From: a virus
Length of the DNA: 28,775 nucleotides
Virus record (IMG/VR): IMGVR_UViG_3300005346_000052
Location: 1 to 28,775 of that record
Direction: 5' to 3' (one strand)
Shown: one piece after another, positions 1,682 to 15,507 of the stretch
How positions within the stretch are numbered: position 1 is the stretch's first letter
Layout: every line of letters begins with the position of its first letter
Made by a program: the position numbers and the translations under genes
The notes under the pieces: model-generated
Told to the model about the DNA's origin: nothing
Database searches by the model: none
Seen by the model: the letters and a program-made list of their open reading frames with translations, nothing else

Positions 1682-1826
1682 ATGAAAGCTGACAAATCGT
1701 ATTATCTAAAATATCGAAACTTGTTTATCCAACTAGGGGTTAACCTATGAAGTAAAACAATTAGACATACATTTTAATATTATTTTAGTTTACAGTAAAC
1801 ATGGTTATTTAATAAAACTTATATGA
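1682..1826 (+). CDS. Small protein between endolysin and spanin, unknown
   Basis: About 47 residues once one G is removed from the GGGG run near 1735. It starts MKADKSYYLKYRN and ends HGYLIKLI. The restored stop TGA overlaps the ATG of the next gene (ATGA at 1823-1826), a strong sign of a real translationally coupled gene. There is no signal peptide or convincing membrane segment. Function unknown; the position suggests a lysis accessory role, but nothing in the protein shows it. Confidence 0.45.
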
Positions 1827-2234
1827 AACTAATCCCATACATAATTGCTATTGGTTTACTATCTTGCAGCCCTCAAAAACGCTTAAATAGATTAGTGAAG
1901 AAGCACCCTCACCTTATACAAAATGATACGGTAATTGTTCACGATACCTTAATCATTCCAACCATTCAAATAGATACTACTACTATATTCATTCCTCATA
2001 AGACCGTTGAAGTAATTAATAATGAAAAAGGTACGTTTGCAATATCGCTATGATACCATTACAAGAGAAATCTATCACGAAGTAGAATGCAAAGGAGATA
2101 CAATTATAAGGGATATATTAGTTCCAGTAGAAAAGTACAACATAACCAATGACTATTCTTTTGTCAAATGGATAGATGTACTTCTAATTGTAGGAATGGG
2201 GCTTGTTGTGTTTTTAACGGGTTTGGGTAAATAA
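1823..2234 (+). CDS. Candidate unimolecular spanin (lipoprotein with C-terminal TM)
   Basis: Removing one A from the run at 2025-2029 gives a 136-residue protein. The N-terminus MKLIPYIIAIGLLSC is a short lipoprotein signal with the lipidated Cys at position 15. The middle is a beta-prone, threonine- and isoleucine-rich ectodomain (NDTVIVHDTLIIPTIQIDTT). Near the C-terminus a single hydrophobic segment (WIDVLLIVGMGLVVFLTGLG) should span the inner membrane. A lipidated N-terminus in the outer membrane plus a C-terminal inner-membrane anchor is the topology of u-spanins such as T1 gp11, which disrupt or fuse the outer membrane in the last step of lysis. Its place after the endolysin supports this. 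The topology is read from sequence; the function is inference. Confidence 0.65.
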
Positions 2235-3333: not shown

Positions 3334-3558
3334 TTGAATTTGTGATTAACCACAAATGTAAATCTGCTTCAATTTCTTCAGTTAATTGGTCTAAAGCATA
3401 ATTGTATAAATCAATGTCATTATCTTTAGGGTTTTTAACATTGAATTCTTTATCTAATTCCTCAACGTATAAATCTAGCCAATTATAATTGTAACTAAAT
3501 TCAACTGTGTAATCAATTCGGGTAACCGTTAATTGTTGTGCTTAATTGTTTTTTTCAT
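3311..3558 (-). CDS. Small acidic protein, unknown
   Basis: Starts MKKTIKAQQLTVTRIDYT after adding one A near 3543, and runs about 82 residues to TNSNDAYFQF. It has an aromatic- and acid-rich middle (YNYNWLDLYVEELDKEF) and an acidic helix (LDQLTEEIEADLHLWL). No family recognised. The long uninterrupted stretch with biased composition supports coding. It overlaps the next start by about 20 bases. Confidence 0.5.
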
Positions 3559-3697
3559 TATTGTTTTAAATAATTTTTTAACTAATTCTTTAACTTCTTT
3601 AACTTTGCTTATTGGCACCGTAAAACCACACGCCTTTAGTTGGCTCGTTGTAAAAGTGATTTTACGACCTGCATTTTCTCTTTTTTCCTCCTCTCAT
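3558..3697 (-). CDS. Small basic protein, unknown
   Basis: About 45 residues. Its ATG overlaps the stop of the upstream gene (TAATG). After removing a G near 3685 it reads MREEKRENAGRKITFTTSQL and continues KACGFTVPISKVKEVKELVK. It would end either at the TAATG overlap at 3558-3560 (one A fewer) or at 3529. Basic and helical; a DNA-associated role is possible but not shown. Confidence 0.4.
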
Positions 3698-3861
3698 TAT
3701 AATTCAAATATTTTACTTAATTTTTCATCTAATTCTAATTTCAACTTTTTAGATTCTTTAGTGTCTACTACATCTTCAAACCCACAAAAATCAAGATTAT
3801 TTTCTATTTTGTATGCTTCAATTAATTTACATAGTTTACTCCATTCTTTCGTTAATTGCAT
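3697..3861 (-). CDS. Small helical protein, unknown
   Basis: 54 residues, starting MQLTKEWSKLCKLIEAYKIE and ending DEKLSKIFEL, rich in Lys, Glu and Leu. I chose the ATG at 3861 rather than the longer frame because it overlaps the end of the preceding gene by 26 bases, which is typical here. No domain recognised. Confidence 0.5.
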   Translation of the reverse strand: MQLTKEWSKLCKLIEAYKIENNLDFCGFEDVVDTKESKKLKLELDEKLSKIFEL

Positions 3862-4156
3862 TTTGATACAAGGTAGTTGTTTTATTAAAATTTTCAAAAG
3901 AACAAAATCCAAATTTTACATCGTTATACACTTCACATTCATTGTATTCTTTTGATACTCCTTTCAATACCCAGTTACAACTAGCAACATAACCCCAATG
4001 ATTAGATGCTCTAACTACACCCTCACTTGTGTACCAATATTTAGAAGATACTCGACCTCTTCTATCAAAAGAAACATAATCAGGGGTTGTTGTAATCTCT
4101 TCACATTTTGAAAAAACTCCTGCAGTTTGTAAATGAAAGTTATCTTTGTTAATCAT
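3836..4156 (-). CDS. Hypothetical phage protein, first gene of a small-gene unit
   Basis: 106 residues from ATG at 4156 (MINKDNFHLQTAGVFSKCEE). The longer frame upstream would run through the promoter at 4186-4215 and is rejected. The middle (FDRRGRVSSKYWYTSEGVVR followed by SNHWGYVASCNWVL) is rich in aromatics and looks like a small beta-barrel domain. I have an impression of similar proteins in flavobacterial phages but know no function. Directly upstream lie a strong promoter and operator repeats 2, so it is probably expressed with the regulator and recombination units. Confidence 0.6.
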   Translation of the reverse strand: MINKDNFHLQTAGVFSKCEEITTTPDYVSFDRRGRVSSKYWYTSEGVVRASNHWGYVASCNWVLKGVSKEYNECEVYNDVKFGFCSFENFNKTTTLYQNAINERME

Positions 4157-5523: not shown

Positions 5524-5970
5524 TTATAGTTTATTTTCGCCACTAGGCAAATGTTCTTTAACGCTCTTTCCTAATTTTATCAATCGTCCAAAATAGAACG
5601 CAATACCTTTACCGTTGTTGAATGAACGCCAACTCTCATCTATGCTGTATACTTCTATTGATATTAATGTTAATGCCGTCCCCTTAGTAACTATCAAATG
5701 AATGTCTAAAAACATTGCCATAATATCTTCAAGTAAGAGTATTTCTATTCCGTAAATCATTAAGATTGCAACTTCATAAGAAAACTATCTTGGATATTAT
5801 GCCCCAACCTAACCTTTTGGAAGTGGATTGTTCGACCAGCTTTTTTGTGATGCGTAAATACCTATTATTGTGTCGGCTAGTATTGACATACCAACAAACA
5901 ACAAAACGCCTTTAATTGGTACGAAAAACGCTACTAAAGAAATAATGATGCCGTTGATTATTGTTTTCAT
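5524..5970 (-). CDS. Holin-like phage membrane protein
   Basis: About 148 residues after correcting an A-run near 5845 and a break near 5780. It starts MKTIINGIIISLVAFFVPIK and has at least three hydrophobic segments: IIISLVAFFVPIKGVLLFVG with ILADTIIGIYA, then GWGIISKIVFL with VAILMIYGIEILLL, and a more polar one around LTLISIEVYSI. The C-terminal pattern SIDESWRSFNNGKGI followed by a basic tail fits phage holin family proteins I know from Bacteroidetes. It would release the M15 endolysin. It is not next to the endolysin but at the end of the late genes, so it would be timed with them. Topology is read by eye. Confidence 0.65.
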
Positions 5971-13352: not shown

Positions 13353-15507
13353 TTATTTACCTTGTTGAAACTTATCAACTACAAGGACTGGACTTGGTTG
13401 GTTATTTAACAAACTAGCAATGTTTGTTAGGTTGTCATTTTGTTGTGCTTGTCCTGTTGCTCCACCATTTGCTCCACCGCTTGAAACTCTAGGAATTGAT
13501 ACAGAAGCAGAACCACCGCCACCGCCACCCTCGTAACGTGATGATACTATTCTCGCAATATTTGAAGCGGCGAATACCCCAGCAGCTGTAGCTGCGATTG
13601 ATTTACCAACTATTCCAGTAGGTGTGTTTGCAAATGTTGATAGAACCGCTTTATATCCATCAACTGTTGCATCTGCTACATTCTTTGTTTTGTTAATTTG
13701 AAATTCACGCTTTGCAGCCTTTTCGCTATTCTTACCAAATATAGCATTTAAGTTGTCGGCAAAATCTAGCCCTTGTTGAGCCTTTTCGTTTATTTTATCA
13801 GCAAGTGCCAATCTTCTATCTAGTTCCTCTTCGTTTGCTTTCTTTTTCGCTTCATCTTCTAAATCAATGTACTTGTTAACTATTGCGTTTTTCTTTGCTA
13901 GATACTCTTCTTCTAATAGTAGTTTCAACTCTTCATTATTCCCTACTGCTAACAACTCATTGTTTAACTTTTCATTTAAGTCGTCAAGTTCTTTTTGTTG
14001 TGCGCTTAGTTGTCTTTGTCTATATGCTTCTGCAACTGCTTCCTCATCTGCTATTGCTTTTTGTTTTAAATCAAATGCTTTTTTATCTGCATCTTGCTGC
14101 GCTTTTCTTAATTTATCCTCTTCGCTTATTTCTTTCTTGACAATATCTGTTTTTTTCTTTGAAGTTTCTTTCTTTCTTGCAATTTCGTCCATTGCTCTTT
14201 TGCGCTCTCCAATATCAAATATTTCTAAGTCTTGTACTAATTTATCTAATGTTGCTTTTTGAATTTTAAGCCTTTCCTCCTCTTTTATTTTGTTTATTCC
14301 TGCTAAAACTTTATTAACCTCGCCTGAATTTTCAATTTCTTTTTGTTTAGCATCTATTCTTTGCTGAATTAAAGCCAATTCAGTTTTAGTAGAATTTATT
14401 AAAAGCATTATCTTTTCACGCTCTAAATCTTTTGTTTCCTTTCCTGCCGCTTGTCTTTTTCTTATTTCATAATCCAAATTATTAACTGCATCATCTGTTG
14501 CTTTTTTATTTGCATCTGATTGTCTATTAAGGTCTGAAATTATCGCATCTGTTTGTTTTTTAATCGCATCTCTTTTTGCTTGAGCGTTTGACTTCATTTT
14601 TTTTGTTTCCTCATCATCAACTACACCCATATCTTCAAAGAGTTTGATAGCGTATGAAATCGCTGGTACTAAACCAAAAGTTAAATACCCTATAAGTATT
14701 TGCATACCCGTTCCCATTTCTCGAAACTCCTTAGCCATATTTTGAACCCTCTTAGCACCTTTAATAACTGCTTCACTAACTAAATCAAAATTAGCAATAA
14801 GTAAACCAAGCCCCACAATTATCGCTCCTATTCCAGTAGCTACTAAAGCAAGTTTAAATATTTTCAACGCCCCCGTTGCCGTACCTACAACAGTCGCATA
14901 AGCAGTGGTTAAAGCAGTCGCTATCTTTGTTTGTGTGTTTCTGAACATCAACATCATCGTCACTTTCCTTTTCTAAAGATAGCCTAATTTGTCTCAATTC
15001 CTGTCAGTACACTTTGAGCCGCTTGCATCTTTACTAAGTGATTGCATTAAGTGCTTCATTCTCTTGACCTGCTAAAGCCATTACACCTTGCATTGCTCCA
15101 TAACCTGCAGTTACTGATTGCCCTAACTGTAAAAGCCCCCTTGCATATTCTTACCATCATTTGCAAGACGAGGTGACTTCATTTCGTAAATCGGTTAATT
15201 TGTCTTGAAGATTTGCAGCCTCATTTAACGCCGCCTTACCTATTGGAGAAGTTCTACCTGCGTCTATTGCGATAGTCTGATAGTCTTGAAGTTTTCTAGT
15301 TAACTCACGCATTGACAAACCACCTGCATCAATCTCTCCTTTTTATTTTTAGCCAACCTTTCGCCAAGAGTTAAAGGTGTATCGTTGATTTTCTTTTGCT
15401 CTTTATCGATACCTTTTAAGCGATTGCTCAACTTGTTTTTTGCTCCTTTGCTCTGCTCCTTTAGTGTCTAATTTCAGACTTACTACTATATCTCTGTTTT
15501 CTGCCAT
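13353..15507 (-). CDS. Tail tape measure protein
   Basis: About 718 residues. It sets tail length and takes part in DNA ejection. The N-terminus MAENRDIVVSLKLDTKGAEQ is typical. The first 180 residues are broken by about eight small errors (15430-14955), while the rest is one clean frame. A hydrophobic region follows (IFKLALVATGIGAIIVGLGL), then roughly 250 residues of coiled coil rich in Lys, Glu, Asp and Ala (around ISEEDKLRKAQQDADKKAFD). The end has a Gly/Ser-rich linker (RYEGGGGGGSASVS) and QPSPVLVVDKFQQGK. Length implies a tail of about 100 nm at the usual 0.15 nm per residue. It starts 3 bases after the preceding tail gene. Confidence 0.85.

Follow-up and report, generated by a model that had tools for sequence, protein, structure and literature searches.

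Gene layout and the broken reading frame

The window, by which we mean the whole stretch analysed (IMG/VR virus record IMGVR_UViG_3300005346_000052, 28,775 bases), carries on its plus strand an M15 endolysin gene (1296–1681; 126 aa if intact; Pfam Peptidase_M15_3, E = 2e-22; PHROG 894 endolysin, E = 6e-38), a 47-aa ORF (1682–1826) and a candidate unimolecular spanin (u-spanin) gene (1823–2234; 135 aa if intact) whose start overlaps the stop of the 47-aa ORF (ATGA). As deposited, the candidate is split into two overlapping ORFs, 1823–2053 (76 aa, with the lipobox GLLSC) and 2022–2234 (70 aa, with a C-terminal transmembrane (TM) segment). A holin candidate (147 aa if intact) lies on the minus strand at 5524–5970 and is also broken.

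When the joined protein was used to query viral contigs, it retrieved a sister contig, IMGVR_UViG_3300005613_000299 (L003, 30 kb), that is ~99% identical to the window over 24 kb with many short gaps. There the spanin gene is one 135-aa ORF (L003:4001–4408), to which the joined protein is 100% identical over residues 1–131, and it belongs to a plus-strand unit of three genes, M15 endolysin (3480–3860), 47-aa ORF (3861–4004) and spanin, with minus-strand genes on either side. The first-pass annotation had placed the spanin directly after the endolysin, which is right as to the endolysin being upstream in the same unit but passes over the 47-aa ORF between them. The holin candidate is intact in the sister (L003:7673–8116, minus strand), 3.3 kb from the plus-strand unit and on the opposite strand, where it matches hemulen gp69, a protein annotated as PF05105, at 29% identity (E = 3e-10).

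Pairwise alignment of window and sister over the first 6 kb counts 41 single-base insertions in the window, 0 internal deletions and 21 mismatches. One inserted A turns the A4 run of the sister into A5 at 2025–2029 (plus strand) and is the source of the apparent frameshift; insertions at 1398, 1505, 1525, 1593 and 1658 break the endolysin and one at 1736 breaks the 47-aa ORF. Since the same insertion-only pattern also breaks the upstream neighbours and the sister ORF is intact, the break at 2025–2029 is an inserted base, an artefact of the window sequence. A single homopolymer correction had been proposed for this gene; it captures the extra A and misses three more inserted bases, at 2216, 2227 and 2228, which scramble the end of the spanin, so that the C-terminus is FLRVWK, as in the sister, and the earlier FLTGLGK is wrong. 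The two ORFs of the deposited sequence could also be taken at face value, as a pseudogene, as a two-component spanin made up of a lipoprotein and a distinct membrane protein, or as halves joined by a programmed frameshift, but the single open frames in the sister virus and in 55 homologues, together with a window that differs from its sister by insertions and breaks adjoining genes likewise, make a biological break extremely unlikely and we rejected it.

Single-base insertions relative to the sister break many window genes, and frameshift-based findings there need comparison with IMGVR_UViG_3300005613_000299. Within the aligned span, only window segment 14107–14603 fails to align with the sister; it is a variable stretch inside a long minus-strand ORF (13353–14963).

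The closest relatives of the endolysin, in Flavobacterium phage hemulen (58%) and in Nonlabens phages (48%), favour a Bacteroidota host. Of the candidate matches obtained by searching ~790 Bacteroidota genomes with the spanin family profile described below, five were inspected and none proved to be a u-spanin of this family, so that a prophage host link did not emerge from them. Homologues of the 47-aa ORF at three other loci (L138, L146 and L147) adjoin other genes, indicating that it is not a fixed partner of the spanin; it was also rejected as a holin, its hydrophobic stretch being too short by eye. The 30-kb sister contig has no other plausible lipoprotein or lipobox ORF and does not show the separate i-spanin and o-spanin genes of a two-component system.

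Protein anatomy and controls on the topology scan

Read in its intact frame, the protein starts with a predicted signal peptide and lipobox (1823–1867, Cys15 codon at 1865–1867), continues with a putative periplasmic ectodomain (1868–2156) and ends in a C-terminal TM segment (residues ~112–134) with a short basic tail (2157–2231), all on the plus strand. Signal peptide and TM calls follow hydropathy and motif rules rather than trained predictors. The ectodomain is Thr/Ile-rich, as had been noticed at first pass (11 T and 15 I in 96 aa), has DT repeats and contains a sole cysteine, Cys89 (codon at 2088–2090). AlphaFold2 with 48 homologues (mean pLDDT 68.6, pTM 0.26; moderate confidence) predicts a short helix (17–27), then five strands (36–44, 48–54, 70–77, 82–89 and 93–101) and the TM helix (112–134; pLDDT 73–93 by block), the single-sequence prediction being poor (pLDDT 47). 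The best Foldseek matches in BFVD were unnamed and unannotated viral proteins (39% and 26% identity).

The protein combines several u-spanin features, namely a lipobox cysteine, a single C-terminal TM segment, a lysis-cassette position and, as reported for the T1 gp11 family, a periplasmic domain, here predicted, that is beta-rich. Absence of periplasmic cysteines, a statistical feature of u-spanins and not part of their definition, does not apply here given Cys89.

Scanning 757 kb of reversed sequence for a lipobox plus a single C-terminal TM segment returned 0 matches, and the counterpart of the window spanin is the sole match in the 30-kb sister genome. Positive controls came from 11b and RAP44, two phages with published u-spanins, in both of which the scan recovered a candidate next to the endolysin, and from Nekkels, where it recovered one candidate; in phi12:1 gp64, located 3′ of the endolysin, the lipobox was recognized by eye. 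Occasional false matches of the scan are short ORFs of <100 aa. Given the empty reversed sequence, the single match in the sister and the retention of both features in 55 diverged homologues, the lipobox and TM combination is more than chance, and the features first noted in the corrected window are real.

A probable spanin family among uncultivated viruses

The protein on its own had no match in Pfam, PHROGs or isolated phages and plasmids (tblastn), and a single-sequence scan of genome contigs also returned none. It falls outside the T1 gp11 sequence family, for which 40% identity over 40% of the periplasmic domain is required: tblastn found no match in 50,697 phage records (E ≤ 10, low-complexity filter on). 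The first relatives came from loci fetched via a neighbouring gene, and 6/6 have a lipobox, a C-terminal TM segment and one aligned cysteine. A profile built from these six located relatives at 75 viral loci, selected by spanin sequence and not by neighbours. The earlier statement that such spanins cannot be found by sequence similarity is contradicted by this result, as the family profile does find relatives among uncultivated viruses.

All 56 distinct complete proteins aligned have the lipobox, with Cys15 invariant, and the C-terminal TM segment; one of the two search patterns includes the lipobox cysteine, a slight bias on the lipobox count and none on the TM count. Besides Cys15, P17, R20, D35, D41, T42, D92 and T93 are near-invariant. 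Exactly one ectodomain cysteine is present in 50/56, Cys89 is kept in 86% of the 56, and ectodomain length ranges from 98 to 140 aa (median 102). Thirteen pairs yielded a usable dN/dS, in the range 0.04–0.24 for 12 of them and 0.48 for the other; the family is under purifying selection. This sequence family, which Pfam, PHROGs and isolated-phage records lack, appears new.

The residue following Cys15 (+2) is S, N or T in 52/55 and never Asp, net charge over +2 to +9 is about +2.7, and an acidic residue within +2 to +6 occurs in 1/55 only. The surface-export signal of Bacteroidota lipoproteins is acidic (PMC5080379). An S/N/T at +2, a basic stretch downstream and no such acidic signal fit an outer-membrane lipoprotein facing the periplasm. 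Lysines and arginines are about equally frequent before and after the TM core (2.7 vs 2.2), so the positive-inside rule leaves orientation unsettled. Lipidation and cleavage of the Cys15 precursor are predictions, and the +2 sorting rules are better established for enterobacteria than for Bacteroidota; the N-terminus might accordingly be an uncleaved anchor, or the protein an inner-membrane lipoprotein, in which case it would not bridge the envelope and would either regulate lysis or need a partner so far unseen. We consider this very unlikely in view of a standard lipobox whose cysteine is invariant throughout the family and is never followed by Asp.

An endolysin is nearby in 38 of the 54 distinct complete loci and belongs to one of four unrelated kinds (M15_3, VanY/M15_4, Amidase_3 and Amidase_2), and a PF05105-type holin occurs at 12/54. 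That the spanin stays constant while the endolysin type changes strongly supports a lysis role. Another late or host-takeover function, e.g., superinfection exclusion, envelope stress or lysis timing, with the endolysin adjacent by coincidence, might explain the 16/54 loci at which the neighbours checked include none of these four main types (one of the 16 has a CHAP protein), and other u-spanin-like proteins do give weak PHROG matches to Cor-type lipoproteins. Such a lipoprotein is nevertheless an improbable explanation: every complete member has the C-terminal TM segment, linkage to an endolysin outlasts exchange of the endolysin type, and the sister genome has no other spanin candidate.

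At L194, L199–L221 and other loci, the gene just upstream of the spanin encodes a member of a cluster of 23 small proteins, mostly of ~59–85 aa and with hydrophobic segments. Most of them overlap or abut the spanin start and they may be pinholins; none had a Pfam match above the cut-off.

The u-spanin reading and known spanins

Considering the intact sister gene, both anchors kept family-wide, purifying selection, linkage to unrelated endolysins and a predicted fold order like that of T1 gp11, the protein is very probably a u-spanin of a Bacteroidota phage, a function that we infer. Lipidation, bridging, collapse and membrane fusion, as well as any disulfide via Cys89, are likewise inferred, and would proceed as follows. 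The precursor would be exported, acquire its lipid at Cys15 and end up in the periplasmic leaflet of the outer membrane. As residues 112–134 would remain in the inner membrane, each molecule would bridge the envelope, its ectodomain of ~97 residues (a short helix followed by beta strands) crossing the peptidoglycan. After holin triggering and cleavage of the wall by the M15 endolysin, the spanins thus released would cluster and collapse, and thereby fuse or disrupt the outer membrane.

T1 gp11, the prototype u-spanin, shares with the window protein the N-terminal lipoprotein signal, the one C-terminal TM segment, the lysis-cassette position and the order of ectodomain elements, which in the T1 gp11 family are a short helix and then four or more strands (PMC6139136) and here are predicted. 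The two differ in that sequence similarity is not detectable, that one ectodomain cysteine is conserved here, and that T1 uses a pinholin and a SAR endolysin whereas the window phage has an M15 endolysin and a PF05105-type holin candidate. The job proposed for the window spanin is that of lambda Rz/Rz1, although these are two proteins forming a helical coiled coil whereas the window spanin is one protein with predicted beta strands; Cys89 may have a parallel in the disulfide-linked dimers of Rz/Rz1. Sequence similarity to any functionally tested spanin was not found.

Spanins of Bacteroidetes phages had been described at first pass as poorly known, but u-spanins of such phages are already on record. 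As early as 2018, Kongari et al. listed them in several Cellulophaga phages, RAP44, 11b and FCL-2 (PMC6139136, Table 5), and Bartlau et al. (2021) annotated them in Ingeline and Nekkels (PMC8776804), so this kind of protein is not new in Bacteroidota phages. A 2025 survey names u-spanins as the only spanins used by Bacteroidetes phages (PMC12596118), which does not fit B40-8, listed with a two-component system (PMC6139136), or B124-14, in which our u-spanin scan found no candidate. The apparent novelty lies in the sequence family, missing from the libraries searched, and in its unusual conserved cysteine.

From phages listed in the 2018 table (PMC6139136, Table 5), we assigned 11b gp49, RAP44 gp03 and Cellulophaga phi12:1 gp64 as the spanin genes. 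These share topology, endolysin adjacency and host phylum with the window spanin but represent different sequence families, and the 11b and RAP44 proteins have no ectodomain cysteine. Topology and one conserved ectodomain cysteine (by alignment) are shared with the candidate of Cellulophaga phage Nekkels (PMC8776804; most likely Nekkels1_70) and with Polaribacter P12002S gp33. Profile comparison with that family aligned 16 columns limited to the lipobox region, too little to establish homology.

A periplasmic cysteine occurs in 0/58 published u-spanins (PMC6139136); the conserved Cys89 is a point against the u-spanin reading and also calls this generalisation into question. It is possible, though less likely than not, that the family forms disulfide-linked homodimers via this cysteine, so that covalent coupling, thought confined to two-component spanins, would also exist in single-protein, beta-rich spanins. 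Cys15, Cys89 and the DT repeats are residues open to testing. Bacteroidota have an envelope unlike the enterobacterial one, and work on how their outer membrane is disrupted has consisted almost solely of annotation; a large, alignable u-spanin family with a profile and conserved residues can serve to annotate lysis genes now labelled hypothetical.

Other spanin candidates were noticed along the way. The Nekkels1_70 (L108:40598–41071) and P12002S gp33 (L109:2962–3414) proteins belong to a second u-spanin family, near PHROG 30696, with further members at L038, L056, L058, L118, L163 and L175 and an invariant ectodomain Cys-Asp pair; the annotated start of P12002S gp33 appears to cut off its signal peptide. 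A third u-spanin-like family (SCSSNYHYQKALKKGL...; L119–L128, L132 and L136) has no ectodomain cysteine, and a PF05105-type holin is near it in several loci. Two candidates are i-spanin-like: L283:1387–1839, from a Bacteroidota genome, has an N-terminal TM segment and a similar DT-rich ectodomain and lies 3′ of a putative endolysin, and gene 016 of Bacteroides phage B124-14 (L110:6765–7370), a phage listed as spanin-less, encodes an N-terminal TM segment and a likely coiled coil directly 3′ of the endolysin, a possible i-spanin.

Flavobacterium phage hemulen gp03 (PHROG 5885) resembles the window spanin in having a lipobox, a C-terminal TM segment and a small upstream ORF with an ATGA overlap, and its phage also carries a related endolysin and holin. 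It differs in having no ectodomain cysteine, and homology, tested owing to the shared overlap, was rejected, as there is no sequence similarity between the two. The hemulen6-1 gp03 gene (L006:1382–1771) is itself an unannotated u-spanin candidate, with matches in 125 phage-collection records, 124 of them named Flavobacterium.
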